Assembly (NCBI GenBank): GCA_017991675.1
Contig: JAGOQB010000001.1
Span: forward strand, 310,001 to 374,000
From: Phenylobacterium sp.
GTDB taxonomy: Bacteria > Pseudomonadota > Alphaproteobacteria > Caulobacterales > Caulobacteraceae
Reading direction: 5' to 3'
DNA: 64,000 nucleotides
Each line of letters starts with the position of its first letter. Positions within the stretch are counted from its first letter, which is position 1. Positions 448 through 62,400 of the stretch are shown in pieces. Below the pieces are notes generated by a model, which saw only the letters and a list, made by a program, of their open reading frames with translations, made no database searches and was not told where the DNA came from. Made by a program: the position numbers and the translations under genes.

Positions 448-1839
448 TTACGCGTCCTCTTCTTCCATAGGCCTGGCGCCCGACAGGCCCAGGGACTTCA
501 GTTTGCGGTGCAAGGCCGAGCGCTCCATGCCGATGAAGGCCGCGGTCCGCGAGATATTGCCGGAGAAGCGCAGCATCTGGGCGTTGAGGTACTCGCGCTC
601 GAACACCTCGCGCGCCTCGCGCAACGGCAGGGCGATGATCTTCTCCGCGCCCAGGCTGGACGGCTGGTCGTTCACCACCGCGTCATTGGGCAGCATCTCG
701 GCGCTGATCGGCTCGCCAGGATCACCGGCCGCCAGGATCAGCATGCGCTCGACGTTGTTGCGCAGCTGGCTGAGGTTGCCCGGCCAGGCCCGCACCTGCA
801 GCGCGGCCAGCGCGTCGTCGGCCAGCCGGCGGCGCGGCATGCCGGTCGCCTCGCAGATCCGGTTGACGAAGTAGTCGATCAGCTCGGGGATGTCCTCGCG
901 CCGCTCCGACAGCCCCGGGACGCTGACCGGCACCACGTTCAGGCGGTGGAACAGATCCTCGCGGAAGCGGCCCGCATTGATCTCCTCGCGCAGATCGCGG
1001 CAGGTCGAGGAGACCACCCGAACATCGACCTGCACGTCCTGCTCTCCGCCCACGCGGCGGAATCGCTGCTCCACCAGGACCCGCAGGATACGGCTCTGGG
1101 TCTCGCGCGGCATGTCCGCCACTTCATCGAGGTATAGCGTCCCGCCATGGGCGCGCTCGAAGACGCCGATCTTGGCCGGCCGGCCGCCCTCCAGCTCCTC
1201 CCCGAACAGCTCGGTGTCGACGCGTTCAGGCGTCATGCCGGCGGCGCTGATCACCACGAACTCGTTGCGGGTCCGCGGGCTGGCCGCATGGATCAGCCGC
1301 GCCACGGTCTCCTTGCCCGAGCCGGGCGGGCCGGCGATCAGCACCCGGCTGTTGGCCGAGGCGAGCTTGGCGATCAGGCCGCGCAGTTGCTGGGTGACCA
1401 CCGACTTGCCGATCAGCCCGTCGGGCTGGATCGTCTGGGCGCGCAGGCGGCGGTTCTCGCGCTTGAGATTGCTGGTCTCCAGCGCCCGCTCGACGCAGAG
1501 CAGCAGCCGGTCGGACTTGAACGGCTTCTCGAGGAACTCGTAGGCCCCGCGCTTGATGGCGCTGACCGCGGTTTCGATGTTGCCGTGCCCGGAGATCATG
1601 ATCACCGGGATGTCGGCGTCCAGGGTCTTGACCAGGTCGAGCAGCTCCAGCCCGTCCATCCCCCCGCCCTGCATCCAGATGTCGAGGATCAGCAGGGCCG
1701 GCTTGCGCGACTTGATGGCGGCCAGCGCGCTCTCGGAGTCGTTGGCCGTGCGCACCGCGTAGCCTTCGTCCGACAGGATGCCTGCAACGAGCTCGCGGAT
1801 GTCCGCCTCGTCGTCGACCACCAGTACATCAGCCGCCAT
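448..1839 (-). CDS. ntrX: NtrX-type response regulator, AAA+ activator lacking GAFTGA
   Basis: Response regulator partner of the membrane kinase NtrY. The receiver domain (about 3-120) has the acidic pocket VDDEAD and the phospho-acceptor Asp in LLILDIWM (residue 53). The AAA+ domain (about 145-380) has a Walker A GPPGSGKE and the Walker B region TLYLDEVADM. A Fis-type helix-turn-helix ends the protein (SRTAAFIGMERSALHRKL). The L1 loop that should read GAFTGA after ELFG is instead EELEGGRPAKIG, so contact with sigma-54 is doubtful. An ATG at 1839 shares its A with the ntrY stop (TGATG) and has AGGAG 7 bases upstream; a GTG one codon earlier is the alternative. Confidence 0.93.
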   Translation of the reverse strand: MAADVLVVDDEADIRELVAGILSDEGYAVRTANDSESALAAIKSRKPALLILDIWMQGGGMDGLELLDLVKTLDADIPVIMISGHGNIETAVSAIKRGAYEFLEKPFKSDRLLLCVERALETSNLKRENRRLRAQTIQPDGLIGKSVVTQQLRGLIAKLASANSRVLIAGPPGSGKETVARLIHAASPRTRNEFVVISAAGMTPERVDTELFGEELEGGRPAKIGVFERAHGGTLYLDEVADMPRETQSRILRVLVEQRFRRVGGEQDVQVDVRVVSSTCRDLREEINAGRFREDLFHRLNVVPVSVPGLSERREDIPELIDYFVNRICEATGMPRRRLADDALAALQVRAWPGNLSQLRNNVERMLILAAGDPGEPISAEMLPNDAVVNDQPSSLGAEKIIALPLREAREVFEREYLNAQMLRFSGNISRTAAFIGMERSALHRKLKSLGLSGARPMEEEDA

Positions 1840-4073
1840 CACATCACTCCTGCGTCTTGAGCTCTTGGCTCAGGTCCGGCGGCGGCGTCGGACGCGCCCG
1901 GCGCCGCCGTGGGAAGTTTCAGCACTGCACGGGCGCCGCGTCCGCCCGTCGCATCGGTCAAAATCAGTTCGCCGCCATGGTCTTCCAGGATCCGCTTGAC
2001 GATCGCCAGACCCAGCCCCGTGCCCTTTTCGCGGGTCGTCACATAGGGCTCGGTCAGGCGGTCGCGGTCCTTGTCCGGCAGGCCGACGCCGTTGTCCTCG
2101 ACGATCACCTGCACCCCCTGCTCGTCGGCGATCAGGCGCGCGGTGATCCGGCCCTTGGGCTCGGGCTCGACGGCGACGCGCGCCGCCACGGCCTCGGCCG
2201 CGTTCTTCAGGATGTTGGTCAGCGCCTGGGCCAGCATCCGGCCGTCGGCGACCAGCGTCACGTGCGGGGTCGGGTCGAGCAGCTCGACCTCGATGTCCGG
2301 GGCGGCGACCCGCTGGGCGAACACTGCGGCGCGGACCAGTTCGGCGCCGTCCTGCGCGGCGAACTTCGGGGTCGGCATCCGGGCGAAGGACGAGAACTCG
2401 TCGACCATCCGGCCGATCCCGTCGACCTGGCGCACGATGGTGTCGGTGCAGCGATCGAAGGTCTCGAGATCCTCGACCGGCACGTCCTTGCGGAACTTGC
2501 GGCGCAGGCGCTCGGCCGACAGCTGGATCGGGGTCAGCGGGTTCTTGATCTCGTGGGCGATCCGGCGGGCGACATCGCGCCAGGCGGCGTTCCGCTGGGC
2601 CGAGACCAGGCGAGTGATGTCGTCGAAGGTCAGCACCAGCCCGCCTTCCGAACGGCTGGCGCGGACGCGCAGCCGGTGGGTTTCGCGAGCCCGCGCCACA
2701 TCCACCTCAGCCTCGGATTCGCCGGCCTGATCGGCGCGATCGGCGATGGCGACGAATTCCGGCGCCACCTCGGCCAGCCGCCGGCCGCTGGTCTGGCCCT
2801 CGACCAGGTCGAGCAGGATGCGCGCCTGGCGGTTCACCGCCGAGATCCGGCCGTCGGAATCCAAGCCGATGACCCCGGCCGAGACCTCGGCCAGCACGGT
2901 CTCGATGAACTGGCGCCGTTCCTCGGCCTCGTCGCCGGCGCGCTTCAGGGCCGCCTGCTGGGCCTGAAGATCGTGCGTCATGCTGTTGAAAGCGCGGGAC
3001 AAGACGGCCAGCTCCTCAGGATCCTCGGAGGTGTCGACCCGCGCGTCGAGATCCCCGCCCGCCACCCGCCCGGCGGCCTGCACCAGCCGCCCGACCGGGG
3101 CCGAGATGGCGCTGGCCGCGCCCATGCCCAGCCACACGGCCCCGACCAACACCAGCATCGCCGTTTCGATGTAGGAAAGCGCGAAAACCCGTTGAATTCG
3201 CGCGCGACTTTCCGCCGCCTCGCGATAGGCGGTAACCGCCCGGTCGGCCTCGTGCAGCTGGTCGACGATGCCGGCCTGAACCGGGCGCGTCACATAGAGA
3301 TAGGCGTCGGGATAGGCGGTCAGCCGGGTCAGCGCGCGCGTAAGGTTCGGCGACACCGAGATCGACCCCTCGTCGGCGGCCGCGAAGCTGGACGGCGGCG
3401 GCGCCTGGAAGCCGACCACCCCGACCGCCTCGGCCCGCGCCAGGATCCGCCCCTCGCGGTCGATCAGATAGGCGGCCGGAAACGCGTGGTAGGAGGCCTG
3501 ATAGGCCAGGAAGTGGCTGAAGGTGACCGGGCTGACCTGCAGCGCCGGGGCGGCGCGGTTCAGGTCGTTGGCCATCAGGGTCACGTGCTCCTCGACGAAC
3601 TGGCTCTGGTCGTCGACATAGGACCGCATCACGGTCGCCGAGTTCTCGACCACGGTCTGGACGCGTTCGGAGAACCAGTTCTCCACCCCGCGGTTGACCA
3701 GCACCGTGTAGAACAGCGCCACGACCATCGCCGGGGCGACCGCCGCCAGCGCGAACAGGGTCACGAACCGCACGTGCAGCCGCGCCGCCGGATCCACCGA
3801 CCGCGCCCGCAGCATCGTCGCCACCCGGAAGCCCACCTGCGCGGCGAGCGCCAGGATCAGCACCAGGTTGAGGCCCAAGATCGCCAGGATGTTCTTGGAG
3901 GCCGGAGCCAGCGGCCCCGTCTCGGGCGGCGAAGCGGCCAGCAGGATCGCCACCGCCGTGAGCACCGCGGCCAGGGCGTAGCCCCCGCCGAGCACATAGC
4001 GTGATTGCAACGCCCGCCAGAACCGCGCGGCGGGCGTCGCGTGAGTTCCGCCATCGTGACTCAGAAACGCCAT
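1839..4073 (-). CDS. ntrY: NtrY-type membrane sensor histidine kinase
   Basis: Sensor kinase of the NtrY/NtrX system, linked in alphaproteobacteria to nitrogen, redox and envelope control. The order of parts is: two N-terminal membrane helices, a third before the sensor segment, a roughly 180-residue periplasmic region, another membrane helix, HAMP, PAS, a HisKA box ([15 protein letters not shown]) and a HATPase domain with N box NILKNAAEAV, DNGVGLP and GTGLGLAIVKRI. I start at the ATG giving MAFLSHDGG; an in-frame GTG at 4136 would add 21 residues with no good ribosome site. The 5' end lies back to back with the aroG leader, so the two promoters share 4074-4196. The stop overlaps the ntrX start. 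Confidence 0.92.
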   Translation of the reverse strand: MAFLSHDGGTHATPAARFWRALQSRYVLGGGYALAAVLTAVAILLAASPPETGPLAPASKNILAILGLNLVLILALAAQVGFRVATMLRARSVDPAARLHVRFVTLFALAAVAPAMVVALFYTVLVNRGVENWFSERVQTVVENSATVMRSYVDDQSQFVEEHVTLMANDLNRAAPALQVSPVTFSHFLAYQASYHAFPAAYLIDREGRILARAEAVGVVGFQAPPPSSFAAADEGSISVSPNLTRALTRLTAYPDAYLYVTRPVQAGIVDQLHEADRAVTAYREAAESRARIQRVFALSYIETAMLVLVGAVWLGMGAASAISAPVGRLVQAAGRVAGGDLDARVDTSEDPEELAVLSRAFNSMTHDLQAQQAALKRAGDEAEERRQFIETVLAEVSAGVIGLDSDGRISAVNRQARILLDLVEGQTSGRRLAEVAPEFVAIADRADQAGESEAEVDVARARETHRLRVRASRSEGGLVLTFDDITRLVSAQRNAAWRDVARRIAHEIKNPLTPIQLSAERLRRKFRKDVPVEDLETFDRCTDTIVRQVDGIGRMVDEFSSFARMPTPKFAAQDGAELVRAAVFAQRVAAPDIEVELLDPTPHVTLVADGRMLAQALTNILKNAAEAVAARVAVEPEPKGRITARLIADEQGVQVIVEDNGVGLPDKDRDRLTEPYVTTREKGTGLGLAIVKRILEDHGGELILTDATGGRGARAVLKLPTAAPGASDAAAGPEPRAQDAGVM

Positions 4074-4159
4074 TGCAGCGGCGACCCTAACCACCTGTGC
4101 CCCAAATTCAACACTGATGTTGCGCTCAGGCTTCACAGTCGCCTGACAGCCGCCTGGGG

Positions 4160-4186
4160 ATGACAGCGGTCTGCGAGTGCGCTATC
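4160..4186 (+). promoter_or_regulatory. candidate aroG leader promoter
   Basis: ATGACAGC (4160-4167), 13 bases, then GCTATC (4181-4186) resembles the Caulobacter housekeeping pattern TTGACGS-N10-14-GCTANAWC. Transcription would begin about 4192-4194, only a few bases before the leader-peptide ATG at 4197, making that peptide nearly leaderless. This is a pattern match only. Confidence 0.4.
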
Positions 4187-4196
4187 GGTGGCGGCG

Positions 4197-4292
4197 ATGA
4201 TCCTCGCCACCAGCCAATATTCGTTTTGGTATTTTGGCTATCCCGATGCCGCTGGCGGAGGAAGGGGATCGCGCGACAGCACGCTGTCATAG
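4197..4292 (+). CDS. aromatic-rich leader peptide upstream of aroG
   Basis: A 31-codon reading frame, ATG to TAG, too short for ordinary gene finding. Residues 7-15 read QYSFWYFGY: six aromatic codons (Tyr, Phe, Trp, Tyr, Phe, Tyr) within nine, all between 4218 and 4241. The rest is Gly/Ser/Asp-rich and ordinary. It ends 16 bases before a perfect terminator hairpin and 81 bases before the DAHP synthase start. This is the expected form of a translated control peptide that senses charged tRNA-Tyr, tRNA-Phe and tRNA-Trp. The only ribosome-site candidate is GGTGG just upstream; the transcript may be nearly leaderless. Confidence 0.72.
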   Translation: MILATSQYSFWYFGYPDAAGGGRGSRDSTLS

Positions 4293-4318
4293 GACGCAAG
4301 ACCCACCCAGCCGCCAGC
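4207..4318 (+). promoter_or_regulatory. attenuator switch (arms 1, 2 and 3) for aroG
   Basis: Three pairing arms are visible. Arm 1 (4207-4214, CCACCAGC) pairs with arm 2 (4251-4258, GCTGGCGG) through 7 pairs and one A-C mismatch, enclosing all the aromatic codons. Arm 2 alternatively pairs perfectly over 8 bases with arm 3 (4311-4318, CCGCCAGC). Arm 3 is also the left side of the terminator. A ribosome stalled on the Tyr/Phe/Trp codons would cover arm 1, free arm 2 to take arm 3, and abolish the terminator. A ribosome that reaches the stop at 4290 lets 1:2 form and termination proceed. A small extra hairpin (GACAGC/GCTGTC, 4275-4288) lies between. Confidence 0.7.
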
Positions 4319-4337
4319 ACCTGGCGGCTTTTCTTTT
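4309..4337 (+). terminator. intrinsic terminator of the aroG attenuator
   Basis: A perfect 9-bp stem, AGCCGCCAG (4309-4317) with CTGGCGGCT (4321-4329), a three-base loop CAC, then TTTCTTTT. It lies before, not after, the DAHP synthase gene, which is what makes it an attenuator rather than an ordinary terminator; ntrY is transcribed away from it. Confidence 0.82.
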
Positions 4338-4373
4338 GCGCCGCCGGAGCCTGAAATCACCCGGAGCGCAACC

Positions 4374-5459
<1,086 letters not shown>

Positions 5460-5469
5460 TCAGACAGGC

Positions 5470-5495
5470 GGGAGCGCGCGCCGGGGCGCGCTCCC
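5470..5495 (+). terminator. strong hairpin after aroG
   Basis: GGGAGCGCGC (5470-5479) pairs perfectly with GCGCGCTCCC (5486-5495) around a six-base loop, 10 bases after the aroG stop. There is no T-run afterwards, so it may act as a 3' stabiliser or a weak terminator. Confidence 0.5.
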
Positions 5496-5591
5496 GTCGA
5501 TATTCCCCGGTCCCCCCGCCTCGGGACTTGGCGCGCCCGGCCGGTTCAGGTCTGTTGAGGTCAGCTTCGCCGTCAACGACCAGGACCCGAC

Positions 5592-6818
5592 ATGGCCGAT
5601 CCCCGCTCCTTGGGCTTTTGCCCCGACCGCCTCGCCAAACTCGACCGCTTCATCACCGAGAAGTACCTGCAGACGGGCCGCATGCCCTGCGCTCAGGTGC
5701 TGATCGCCCGCCATGGCGAGATCGTGCACGAGTTCGTCGGCGGCCGGCGCGACGTGGCCCGCGGGCTGGCCTGCGAGGCCGACACCGTCTTCCGCATCTA
5801 TTCGATGACCAAGCCGATCACCTCGATCGCCTTCATGATGCTGGTCGAGGAAGGCAAGGTCGCGCTCGACGATCCGGTCCACCGCTTCATCCCCGAATGG
5901 GCGAACCTCGGCGTGTTCAGCGCCGGGATCACCGGCGGCTTCCTGACCAAGCCGCCCGCGCGGCCGATGCAGATGGTCGATCTGCTGCGTCACACCTCCG
6001 GCCTGACCTACGGCTTCCAGAACCGCACCAATGTCGACGCCGCCTATCGCAAGGCCGGGGTCGGCGAGATCGGCAGCACTCTGCCGCTCGACGCCATGAT
6101 CGAGGCGCTGGCGGCCCTGCCGCTGGAGTTCTCGCCCGGCGAGGCCTGGAACTACTCGGTCTCCACCGACGTGCTCGGCTACCTGGTCGGCAAGATCGCC
6201 GGCATGCCGTTCGAGCAGTTCCTGCAGCAGCGGATCTTCACGCCGCTCGGCATGACCGACACCGGCTTCCAGGTGCGCGAGGGCCAGGGCGGGCGGCTGG
6301 CCGCCTGCTACAACGCCACGCCGAAGGGCGGGTTGGACCTGCAGGACGACGCGACGACCAGCCCCTACCTGCAGCCGCCGTCGTTCGTGTCCGGCGGCGG
6401 CGGGCTGGTCTCGACCGCGGCCGACTACATGAAATTCTGCCAGATGCTGCTGAACCGCGGCGAATACGGCGGCATGCAGCTCATCGCGCCCAAGACCCTC
6501 GACCTGATGACCGCCAACCATCTGCCCGACGGCAAGGACCTGACCCAGCTGTCGCGCTCGCTGTTCTCCGAGGCGACCAACGCCGGCGTCGGCTTCGGCC
6601 TCGGCTTCGCCGTGGTGCAGGACGCGCCGCGCACCCTGGTGCCGTGCAGCGACGGCGAGTTCTACTGGGGCGGCGCGGCCAGCACGGCGTTCTGGGTGGA
6701 CCCGGCCGAGGACCTCTCCGTGGTGTTCATGACCCAGGTGCTGCCCTCGTCGGCCTATCCCATCCGACGAGAGCTGCGGACCCTGGTCTACTCGGCCCTG
6801 ATCGAGCCGGCCGTCTGA
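5592..6818 (+). CDS. beta-lactamase-fold serine hydrolase (class C / EstB type)
   Basis: A 408-residue protein of the serine beta-lactamase/carboxylesterase family. The nucleophile motif S-x-x-K is seen in FRIYSMTKPITS (about 76-79), followed by the conserved LRHTSGLTYGF block and the YxN-like motif in AWNYSVSTDVLGYLVG. Near the C-terminus WGGAASTAFWVDP occupies the place of the KTG/HxG box. It has no signal peptide, so it is probably a cytoplasmic esterase or peptidase rather than a resistance enzyme; the substrate is unknown. AGGA lies 8 bases before the ATG. It is convergent with ntrC, only 2 bases away, and is probably transcribed alone or from the aroG unit. Confidence 0.88.
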   Translation: MADPRSLGFCPDRLAKLDRFITEKYLQTGRMPCAQVLIARHGEIVHEFVGGRRDVARGLACEADTVFRIYSMTKPITSIAFMMLVEEGKVALDDPVHRFIPEWANLGVFSAGITGGFLTKPPARPMQMVDLLRHTSGLTYGFQNRTNVDAAYRKAGVGEIGSTLPLDAMIEALAALPLEFSPGEAWNYSVSTDVLGYLVGKIAGMPFEQFLQQRIFTPLGMTDTGFQVREGQGGRLAACYNATPKGGLDLQDDATTSPYLQPPSFVSGGGGLVSTAADYMKFCQMLLNRGEYGGMQLIAPKTLDLMTANHLPDGKDLTQLSRSLFSEATNAGVGFGLGFAVVQDAPRTLVPCSDGEFYWGGAASTAFWVDPAEDLSVVFMTQVLPSSAYPIRRELRTLVYSALIEPAV

Positions 6819-6820
6819 CC

Positions 6821-8247
<1,427 letters not shown>

Positions 8248-8251
<4 letters not shown>

Positions 8252-59469: not shown

Positions 59470-62400
59470 CTAGATATCCTCGACGAAGACCACGCCGGGC
59501 GCGGTCTTCAGGGCGCCCCGCACCGACACGTCCAGGCTGAAACGCCCCGGCAGCTTGAGCTCGATTTCACGGCCGCGCTCGATGTTGGCGACCAGGATGA
59601 TCTCCCCGCCGCGGGGATTGGCGACATTCTCCAGCCGCTTCTTCAGCGCCTCGATCTCGGCGCTGCGCGGCGCCACGTGGACGCGCAGCCCGGCCACCGC
59701 GTTCTCGATCGCCTTGTCGATGGGCTCGGCGTCGTCACCGAAGAAGCGAACCTCGCCGTCGCGGGCCTTGGCGCGAACCTTGATCGCCACCGCCTTGCCG
59801 GGCTCGAGTACGTCGCGGCACTTGCGAAGCGACTCCGGTGGGAACAGCACCTCGTACTCCCCTGTCGGATCCGACAAGGTGACGAAAGCGAACTTCTCGC
59901 CGCTGGACTGGGACGCCCGCTCCTGTTTGCGCCGTACGACACCGGCCATCCGGAACGCCTCGGCGCCCGCCTCGGCCTTTGGGATCACTTCCGCCAACAG
60001 ATCGGTCCGACGACGGCGCAGCGCCGTCACCATGTCGTCGAGCGGGTGCCCTGACAGATAGAAGCCGACCGCCGCCAGTTCCTCGTCCAGCCGTTGGACC
60101 GGGGTCCAGGGCTCGGCCTTCGGCATCTTCTTCCGGACCTGTGCGACCAGGTGATGGGTCCCGTCGGAGAACAGCGCGCCCTGCGCCGAACTTTCCTGAG
60201 AAGCCACGCTTTGTCCCAGGCCGGCGAGGAGCTCCGCCGCAGCGAGCAATTGCGCCCGGTCCACGTGAATGGAATCAAAGGCCCCGGCGCGGGCGAGTGT
60301 TTCGAACGTCCGCTTGTTGACCTGCTTGGGATCCACCCGCGAGGCGAAGTCGAAGATGTCCTTGAAGGGACCGCCCGCGGTGCGGACCGCCACCACGTGC
60401 TCCATCGCCTGCTGACCGACGTTGCGGATGCCGCCGAGCGCGTAGAGAACCTCGCCGTCCTCCACCTCGAAATCCGCGCCTGAGCGGTTCACGTCGGGGC
60501 TGCGGATCTTCACCCCGAACCGCTTGGCGTCCTGGTAGAAGACCGCCAGCTTGTCGGTGTTGGAGATATCGAGGCTCATCGAGGCCGCGAAGAACTCGAC
60601 CGGCGTGTTCGCCTTCAGCCAGGCCGTCTGGTACGAGACATAGGCGTAGGCCGCCGCGTGGCTCTTGTTGAAGCCGTAGCCCGCGAACTTGTCCACGAGG
60701 TCGAAGATCGACCCGGCCTGCTCGGCCGGCACGCCCTTGGCCTCGGCCCCGGAGACGAACCTGGCCCGCTGCAGGTCCATCTCCTCCTTCTTCTTCTTGC
60801 CCATCGCCCGGCGCAGAAGGTCCGCTTCCCCGAGCGAATAGCCGGCCAGGATCTGGGCGATCTGCATCACCTGTTCCTGGTAGACGATGATCCCGTAGGT
60901 CTCCTTCAGCACCGGCTCCAGGCTTGGGTGCATGTAGTCGATGGGCTTGCGGCCGAACTTGCAATCGATGAAGGCCGGGATGTTGTCCATCGGACCCGGC
61001 CGGTACAGCGACACGACGGCGGTGACGTCCTCCAGCGAGCCGGGGCGCAGCTGGCGCAGGGTGTCGCGCATCCCCTGCCCTTCGAGCTGGAACACTCCGA
61101 CCGTGCCGCCGTTGGACATCACTTCGTAGGCCGGCGCGTCGTCGACGCCGAGCGTTGCGAAGTCGACATGCTCGCCCCGCTTGCGCAGGAACTTCAGCGC
61201 CCGGTCGATGACCGTCAGGGTCTTCAGGCCCAGGAAGTCGAACTTCACCAAGCCGGCGCTCTCGACCCACTTCATGTTGAACTGGGTGGCGGGCAGCTCC
61301 GAGCGCGGATCGCGATAGAGCGGGGTCAGCTGAGTCAGCGGCCGGTCGCTGATCACCACGCCGGCGGCGTGGGTCGAGGCGTTGCGGTAGAGGCCTTCCA
61401 GTTGCAGCGCGGTCTCCAGCAGCTGCTTGACCGCCTCGTCGTCGTCCTTGGCCTGGCGCAGGCGCGGCTCGATCTCGATGGCCTTGGCCAGCGTCACCGG
61501 GTTGGCCGGGTTCGCCGGCACCATCTTGGCCAGACGGTCGACCAAGCCCAGCGGCAGCTGCAGCACCCGGCCCACGTCGCGCAGCACGGCGCGCGCCTGC
61601 AGGGTGCCGAAAGTGATGATCTGCGCCACCCGGTCGCGACCGTAGTGCTTCTGGACGTAGCTGATGACCTCTTCCCGGCGCTCCTGGCAGAAGTCGATAT
61701 CGAAGTCGGGCATCGATACCCGCTCCGGATTCAGGAAGCGTTCGAACAGCAGGCCGTAGCGCAACGGGTCGAGGTCGGTGATGGTCAGGGCATAGGCGAC
61801 CAGCGAGCCGGCGCCCGACCCCCGTCCCGGCCCAACCGGAATGTCGTGGTCCTTGGCCCACTTGATGAAGTCCGACACGATCAGGAAGTAGCCGGGGAAG
61901 CCCATCTTGCTGATGACCCCGATCTCACGTTCCAGACGCGCTTCATACTCTTCAACCGGCAGCGCGTTGGCCTGACCGCCGGCGATCCGCGCCTTCAGCC
62001 CCTCGCGCGCCTGGTGGGCCAGTTCGTCGGCCTCCGAGCGGCCGGCCCCGGTATCGAAGCGCGGCAGGATCGGGTCGCGCTTCTTGACCATGAAGGCGCA
62101 GCGGCGGGCGATGTCGAGGGTGTTGTCGCAAGCTTCCGGCAGGTCCGCGAACAGCGCCCGCATGTCGGCGCCCGACTTGAACCAGTGTTCCGGCGTCACC
62201 CGCCGCCGCTCGTCCTGGCTGATGAACGCGCCGTCGGCGATGCAGAGCAGCGCTTCGTGCGCCTCGTACATGGCCGGCTTGGCGAAATAGACGTCGTTGG
62301 TCGCGACCAGCGGCACGTCGTTGTCATAGGCGAACGCCACCAGTTCGCCCTCGGCGGCGGCCTGCGCCGGCAACCCATGCCGCTGAAGCTCGACATAGAA

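Follow-up and report, generated by a model that had tools for sequence, protein, structure and literature searches.

A putative ribosome-mediated transcription attenuator with mixed aromatic codons upstream of class I aroG

Attenuators of the enterobacterial trpL, pheL, and hisL type are ribosome-mediated. The leader described here, upstream of the class I DAHP synthase gene aroG, resembles them in that a short frame with control codons stands before a biosynthetic gene, together with an intrinsic terminator and an antiterminator that exclude each other. Unlike them, it would govern the first common step of the shikimate pathway and mixes codons for Phe, Tyr, and Trp; it also differs in falling below every Rfam cut-off and in that none of 74 leaders has a Shine-Dalgarno match longer than four bases. 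Proteobacterial attenuation is reportedly treated by Panina 2001 and Vitreschak 2004. The Vibrio gene named aroA-I-alpha, discussed below, presumably encodes a DAHP synthase.

The aroR leader of Corynebacterium glutamicum precedes aroF, a DAHP synthase gene (PMC11802643, PMC4046766), and like ours is a leader peptide attenuator with aromatic codons. The aroR leader differs in carrying Phe-Tyr-Phe only, in responding to Phe and not to Tyr (PMC11802643), and in belonging to an actinobacterium. The uORFC-13-1 motif, with 24 unique sequences from Acholeplasma and environmental DNA, likewise combines a predicted upstream frame with a terminator before a DAHP synthase gene (Acholeplasma aroF) and has possible -10 and -35 regions; it differs in having at least one Phe codon and a ribosome-binding site (PMC8632094). 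Attenuators were predicted before Vibrio aroA-I-alpha > tyrA (PMC1173090 Table 7, from Merino's site), and PMC8632094 cites Camakaris 1980 for the hypothesis that E. coli aroF is attenuated. These cases share with ours a proposed attenuation before a proteobacterial operon headed by DAHP synthase; they differ in concerning another operon, with tyrA, and other lineages. The trpL transcript of Sinorhizobium meliloti is reported to start at the leader ATG and so to be leaderless (PMC7298713, PMC10117765). It is, like ours, an alphaproteobacterial attenuator, with a leaderless start reported from data there and predicted here, but it senses Trp only and stands before trpE(G). Control of proteobacterial DAHP synthases is described, in the passages and abstracts searched, as acting through repressors (TyrR, TrpR) and feedback. 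For the class I aroG of alpha-, beta-, or gammaproteobacteria, these passages and abstracts describe no comparable leader with aromatic codons; an earlier prediction is possible. We regard the putative attenuator as a new family of a known kind, distinguished by its predicted leaderless start and mixed aromatic sensing.

The leader and its neighbourhood

Within the window, by which we mean the whole 64-kb stretch of DNA analysed, positions 4197-4292 of the forward strand hold an ATG-to-TAG leader frame of 31 codons with the translation MILATSQYSFWYFGYPDAAGGGRGSRDSTLS, read letter by letter. Six aromatic codons fall among nine (QYSFWYFGY), starting at 4218, 4224, 4227, 4230, 4233, and 4239. Segment 2 (4251-4258, GCTGGCGG) is fully complementary to segment 3 (4311-4318, CCGCCAGC) and gives a perfect 8-bp antiterminator, while 4309-4317 (AGCCGCCAG) pairs at 9/9 positions with 4321-4329 (CTGGCGGCT) in a terminator followed by TTTCTTTT at 4330-4337. 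A preliminary description of this DNA had claimed the frame with its aromatic codons, the perfect 2:3 pairing, and the perfect 3:4 terminator with its T-run before aroG, and the letters confirm all of them. It had also drawn a 1:2 pairing that encloses the codons (4207-4214, CCACCAGC, with 4251-4258); this pairing forms at 7/8 positions, with one A-C mismatch, and finds no support in covariation. The features are, in order:

4160..4165, + strand: -35-like hexamer ATGACA, followed by a 17-nt spacer; position conserved in relatives, weak consensus match in the window
4183..4188, + strand: -10-like hexamer TATCGG, ending 8 nt before the leader ATG
4197..4292, + strand: leader peptide frame of 31 codons, aligned with relatives; the upstream Shine-Dalgarno match has four bases only
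4207..4214, + strand: segment 1, partner of segment 2 (7/8 pairs), which would free the terminator; partly conserved, no covariation, the weakest element
4218..4241, + strand: putative control codons Y-S-F-W-Y-F-G-Y (six aromatic of eight); aromatic run conserved
4251..4258, + strand: segment 2, GCTGGCGG, antiterminator 5' arm, from alignment, covariation, and folding
4309..4318, + strand: segment 3, comprising the antiterminator 3' arm (4311-4318) and the terminator 5' arm (4309-4317)
4321..4329, + strand: segment 4, terminator 3' arm, from folding, covariation, and a terminator scan
4330..4337, + strand: T-run of the intrinsic terminator, from sequence and the terminator scan
4374..5459, + strand: aroG, class I DAHP synthase, the gene that would be controlled; GTG start, GGAG at 4363-4366

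The aroG product matches TIGR00034 at 522.7 bits (cut-off 173.2) and also PF00793. Because ntrY (- strand, starting at 4136) and aroG (+ strand, starting at 4374) diverge with the terminator between their starts, it ends no listed upstream gene, and an end-terminator of an upstream gene was rejected on this ground. Together with a PF00144 serine hydrolase gene (4374-6818 for the pair), aroG sits between ntrC (6821-8251, - strand) and ntrY (1839-4136, - strand). The hydrolase gene is missing from a related locus, L083, where aroG is flanked by ntrY and ntrC, and may therefore be a later arrival.

A short frame with at least five aromatic codons in 10, placed 30-160 nt before a terminator-like hairpin, occurs at this site alone, both strands of the window considered; at four aromatic codons in 10, one further frame-hairpin pair appears, at 60605. 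A pattern built from the leader terminator finds no second copy in the 64 kb. The terminator alone folds at z -5.14 (0/200 shuffles) and the whole 141-nt leader at z -2.46 only (3/200 shuffles), while the fold of 4197-4300 by itself (z -0.77) is scarcely more stable than that of shuffles, which we count against an attenuator. Among the 4227 models of Rfam release 15, no family exceeds its gathering cut-off at the window's leader, the best match in 4100-4400 reaching 15.4 bits against a cut-off of 70; a known Rfam element was rejected on these grounds. Across 20 of 102 aroG loci, Rfam likewise places no family at the leader and gives one match elsewhere. NCBIfam returned 0 families for the leader peptide.

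Conservation before aroG and breadth in Proteobacteria

Conservation of the aromatic frame and the arms in relatives had been proposed as a check on the attenuator reading, and it is found. Of 100 class I aroG loci, 70 have an aromatic frame with a terminator upstream at a strict cut and 74 at a looser one (at least four aromatic codons in ten), against 1/1000 and 13/1000 dinucleotide shuffles and 0/100 and 1/100 reverse complements. Among usable aroG loci of the window's own family the counts are 20/21 and 21/21. The loci number 102 in all, the best 80 of 588 confirmed stretches plus 22 from the family search; L047 (58 nt) and L102 (0 nt) were dropped for short upstream sequence. We count against the attenuator the 26 of 100 loci that lack the arrangement even at the looser cut, among them Rhodocyclales, Methylotenera, Polynucleobacter, two Cupriavidus, and several contigs from outside Proteobacteria; no alpha locus is among the 26, the labels alpha, beta/other, and gamma having been assigned by hand from record annotation and the tree. 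Before a control gene, the class II DAHP synthase of the same family, the arrangement occurs in 1/30 loci, or 4/30 at the looser cut (shuffles 1/300 and 5/300), these loci representing 30 of the 59 genomes in which class II was matched. A class II leader was rejected as a candidate: its frames are much alike and appear to resemble the 3' end of an upstream coding gene. As judged from these loci, the putative attenuator is no speciality of the window's order and is present in alpha-, beta-, and gammaproteobacteria.

We built a covariance model of the leader, R1, whose E-values are rough. In the 119 family genomes it recovers 22 full-length leaders with E <= 1.6e-19, of which 21 have aroG, and in the window's own genome one full-length match. 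Class I aroG itself is present in 22 of the 119; in the 22nd, G081, it is cut at a contig end. Searching 385 genomes of the class gave 14 full-length matches at E below 1e-8. One of these is the window and one, L147, sits where its contig ends; the other 12 can all be read and are all followed by aroG. For L157, which belongs to these 12, our script found no frame with three aromatic codons. At phylum level, full-length matches with E <= 1e-8 turn up in 47 of 398 genomes. The 28 loci read from these 47 are all followed by aroG, whose alignment begins 32-140 nt downstream; 26 are new relative to the aroG loci read before, among which L182 and L201 had already been seen. Weak matches (E above 1e-8) mostly cover the terminator end of the model alone, and five such loci (L159-L162, L168) show no aroG, with only 214 nt readable in L162.

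The single family genome with a leader but without aroG is G118. Its orphan leader, L175 (G118:C43:64763-64913, - strand), scores 98.3 bits and has the frame MTFAASPFANWYFSYPTPRATAKDRMA and a terminator; aroG is absent from the 1400 nt that follow, G118 as a whole gives no AroG match, and the next frame begins 343 nt on. L175 may be a relic or may function in trans.

On the aroG tree, rooted at its midpoint, leader-bearing genes fall on both sides of the deepest drawn split, with 43/44 rows bearing a leader on one side and 31 with against 25 without on the other. The leader label needs 8 changes on this tree, compared with 23.3 in shuffles. An old origin with losses may be one reading of this distribution. 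A class II DAHP synthase is encoded as well in the window's genome (G000:C6:164737-166071, L111) and in 58 of the 59 other family genomes searched; class I aroG is in 22/119, and the enzyme under putative attenuation looks like the accessory isozyme.

Three further loci stand beside this set. L069 has a family-type terminator 72-46 nt before its aroG match and a leader frame with three aromatic codons only (MHTAQHPFFRFTRQPQAVGKA), which suggests a decaying or altered switch. L073, on a metagenome contig filed as Anaerolineae, has the frame MSRYFSFFSWYGYF... about 200 nt before its aroG match and then a GC-rich hairpin without a clear T-run, possibly the same attenuator logic outside Proteobacteria. 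The aroG tree groups [Pseudomonas] boreopolis with Xanthomonas; downstream of its aroG lies a glycine riboswitch (RF00504, 52.4 bits; L046, 3939-4029, - strand).

Helices, start site, and codons of the leaders

Covariation was scored in alignment A2, which holds 62 leaders (61 distinct) of 66, the near-copies L007, L082, L092, and L096 being left out, and in A1, which holds 32; eight of the 74 leaders, found later, are in neither. The terminator clearly covaries: 94.9% of cells are paired over the 62 aligned leaders, with 43 double-change cells versus 11.5 +- 8.2 in shuffles and a covariation score of 0.192 versus 0.092 +- 0.010, counts to which related rows contribute repeatedly. Its pair types, 9 versus 7.9 shuffled, show no excess. 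The antiterminator covaries modestly. Its seven-pair core is 90.8% paired, the whole helix is 84.5% paired versus at most 54.2% when slid, and its covariation score of 0.073 lies above every shuffle (0.046 +- 0.007); the eighth pair is kept in 13.2% of cells. Because three of five measures fail to beat shuffles (paired cells 84.5% versus 83.8%, double-change pairs 2 versus 2.2, pair types 7 versus 7.5), we take this support as modest. Segments 2, 3, and 4 change together in several beta loci, for example GAGGCGG / CCGCCTC / GAGGCGG in L030 and CCGGCGG / CCGCCGG / CCGGCGG in L054. The 1:2 helix gives no covariation in 32 leaders (0.109 versus 0.111 shuffled), and its paired fraction, 67.7%, is close to that of a slid control (68.1%); a consensus fold predicted from 11 Burkholderia-type leaders does include it. 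For the purine-rich stretch after segment 2, RNAalifold on the 62 rows gives no clear consensus of further pairing.

Predicted folding in the window places the two mutually exclusive states near equality, at -52.3 and -51.4 kcal/mol, 0.9 kcal/mol apart over 141 nt. When the modelled ribosome occupies the middle aromatic codon, 73/74 leaders form the 2:3 pairing (the miss is L084), compared with 94/370 when the spacer is shuffled; with the ribosome modelled at the leader stop codon, the terminator forms in 74/74.

A transcription start downstream of 4337, feared in the preliminary description, is not what the promoter predictions favour, the best one lying just upstream of the leader in all 35 alphaproteobacterial loci. 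It ends 5-11 nt before the leader ATG in each of the 35 (17 of them at 7 nt), against 60/700 shuffles, and a frequent form is GTGACA, 17 nt, TAnnnT; as in the covariation tests, related rows count repeatedly. In beta/other loci the promoter ends 25-47 nt before the leader ATG in 23/30 (shuffles 194/600) and 5-11 nt before it in 5/30, and in gamma loci 5-11 nt before it in 5/8 (shuffles 19/160), the count using 73 of 74 leaders since one had less than 80 nt upstream. We count against the attenuator that a strict sigma-70 scan of 4000-4500 finds no site and that the window's promoter matches the consensus poorly. No locus of the 74 has a Shine-Dalgarno match of at least five bases before the leader ATG, and eight, including the window, have four bases; before the aroG match start, at least five bases are found in 15/74, a rough count as aroG starts are unannotated. 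Given the promoter's distance from the ATG in all 35 alpha loci, we infer a leaderless alphaproteobacterial leader transcript, whose predicted start in the window is position 4197 or one no more than about 2 nt away. Caulobacter has many mRNAs of the leaderless kind, 375 according to PMC4117421.

Codons for all three amino acids are present in 63/74 leaders, including 35/35 alpha and 8/8 gamma; the 11 leaders without Trp, all beta/other, count against three-fold sensing. Among Phe codons, TTT makes up 62/72 in alpha leaders versus 7/191 in the adjacent aroG genes, 98/133 versus 53/212 in beta/other, and 18/20 versus 4/44 in gamma. This preference could stem from slow decoding or from a need for unpaired RNA. 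In the alignment, the window and L083 have a single-nucleotide insertion after the last Tyr codon and ahead of segment 2. This +1 insertion in the window's clade puts the end of the leader peptide in another frame, and L082 has the same shifted end. That the switch arms are kept despite the frame shift argues for selection on RNA pairing rather than on the peptide end. In the window, 31 nt separate segment 2 from the leader stop codon downstream, and a ribosome at that stop would leave segment 2 uncovered, which we count against the attenuator.

Competing readings and significance

We propose that 4197-4337 is very probably a ribosome-mediated transcription attenuator for aroG that senses charged tRNAs for Phe, Tyr, and Trp, and that aroG is probably switched on when these amino acids run short. 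By most features that a sequence can display, it is such an attenuator. RNA polymerase would start at or next to the leader ATG, with a ribosome translating the leader behind it. Were charged tRNA for any of the three amino acids short, the ribosome would stall in 4218-4241, leaving segment 2 free to pair with segment 3, so that no terminator would form and aroG would be transcribed. With all three charged tRNAs plentiful, the ribosome would run through segment 2, segment 3 would pair with segment 4, and transcription would stop near 4337. The trpL/pheL-type reading of the preliminary description thus survives in its frame, terminator, and antiterminator; its 1:2 helix is without covariation, and the start site is a prediction.

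Only the view of this one sequence speaks for a chance run of aromatic codons near a terminator, an explanation of negligible probability that conservation refutes; the shuffle controls, the lone frame-hairpin site in the window, and phylum-wide conservation before aroG all stand against it. That the arms and the aromatic run are conserved together before aroG also opposes a constitutive partial terminator or a small protein gene, in which the aromatic codons would have no sensing role. Such a reading would accommodate G118, which keeps the leader without aroG, but it is extremely unlikely given the reversal of synonymous Phe codon choice relative to aroG and the antiterminator pairing in 73/74 leaders against 94/370 with a shuffled spacer. 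In a nascent-peptide sensor of the TnaC kind, a free aromatic amino acid would bind and the leader peptide itself would stall the ribosome. The 3' half of the peptide is indeed partly conserved (P.PLA.., SLAAGG); this stretch, however, contains segment 2 and is translated in a shifted frame in the window's clade. The order and identity of the aromatic residues vary freely (YSFWYFGY, FYFYFFW, FFTGYFYFS, AYWYF), which fits codon sensing, and we consider a peptide sensor very unlikely.

A dual-function RNA would add to attenuation an action in trans of the terminated leader RNA or of the peptide, as reported for rnTrpL and peTrpL of Sinorhizobium (PMC7298713, PMC10117765). The predicted leaderless small mRNA of about 140 nt and the orphan leader of G118 (98.3 bits, no aroG in 1400 nt downstream) would suit it; against this, a lone orphan among 119 family genomes may be the relic of a lost gene, and we hold a second function to be unlikely. 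A joint reading would make the leader an ancient pan-proteobacterial three-tRNA sensor, summing Phe, Tyr, and Trp charging at the entry to the shikimate pathway, with the rarer Phe codon sharpening the response, a leaderless transcript in alphaproteobacteria, and an additional trans-acting function for the leader RNA or peptide, one that G118 would have retained although it has no aroG. As a whole we regard it as improbable.

An attenuator responding to the three charged tRNAs, the reading that we prefer, opens a clear test, namely whether one leader integrates three amino acids. It also raises the question of how attenuation works when the ribosome loads on a bare RNA 5' end, and a model such as ours could annotate leader peptides that annotation may overlook. 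For the organisms themselves, the putative attenuator would represent a well-conserved RNA-level control of the class I enzyme that spans three classes of Proteobacteria, in carriers of which many, at least in the window's family, also have the class II enzyme.
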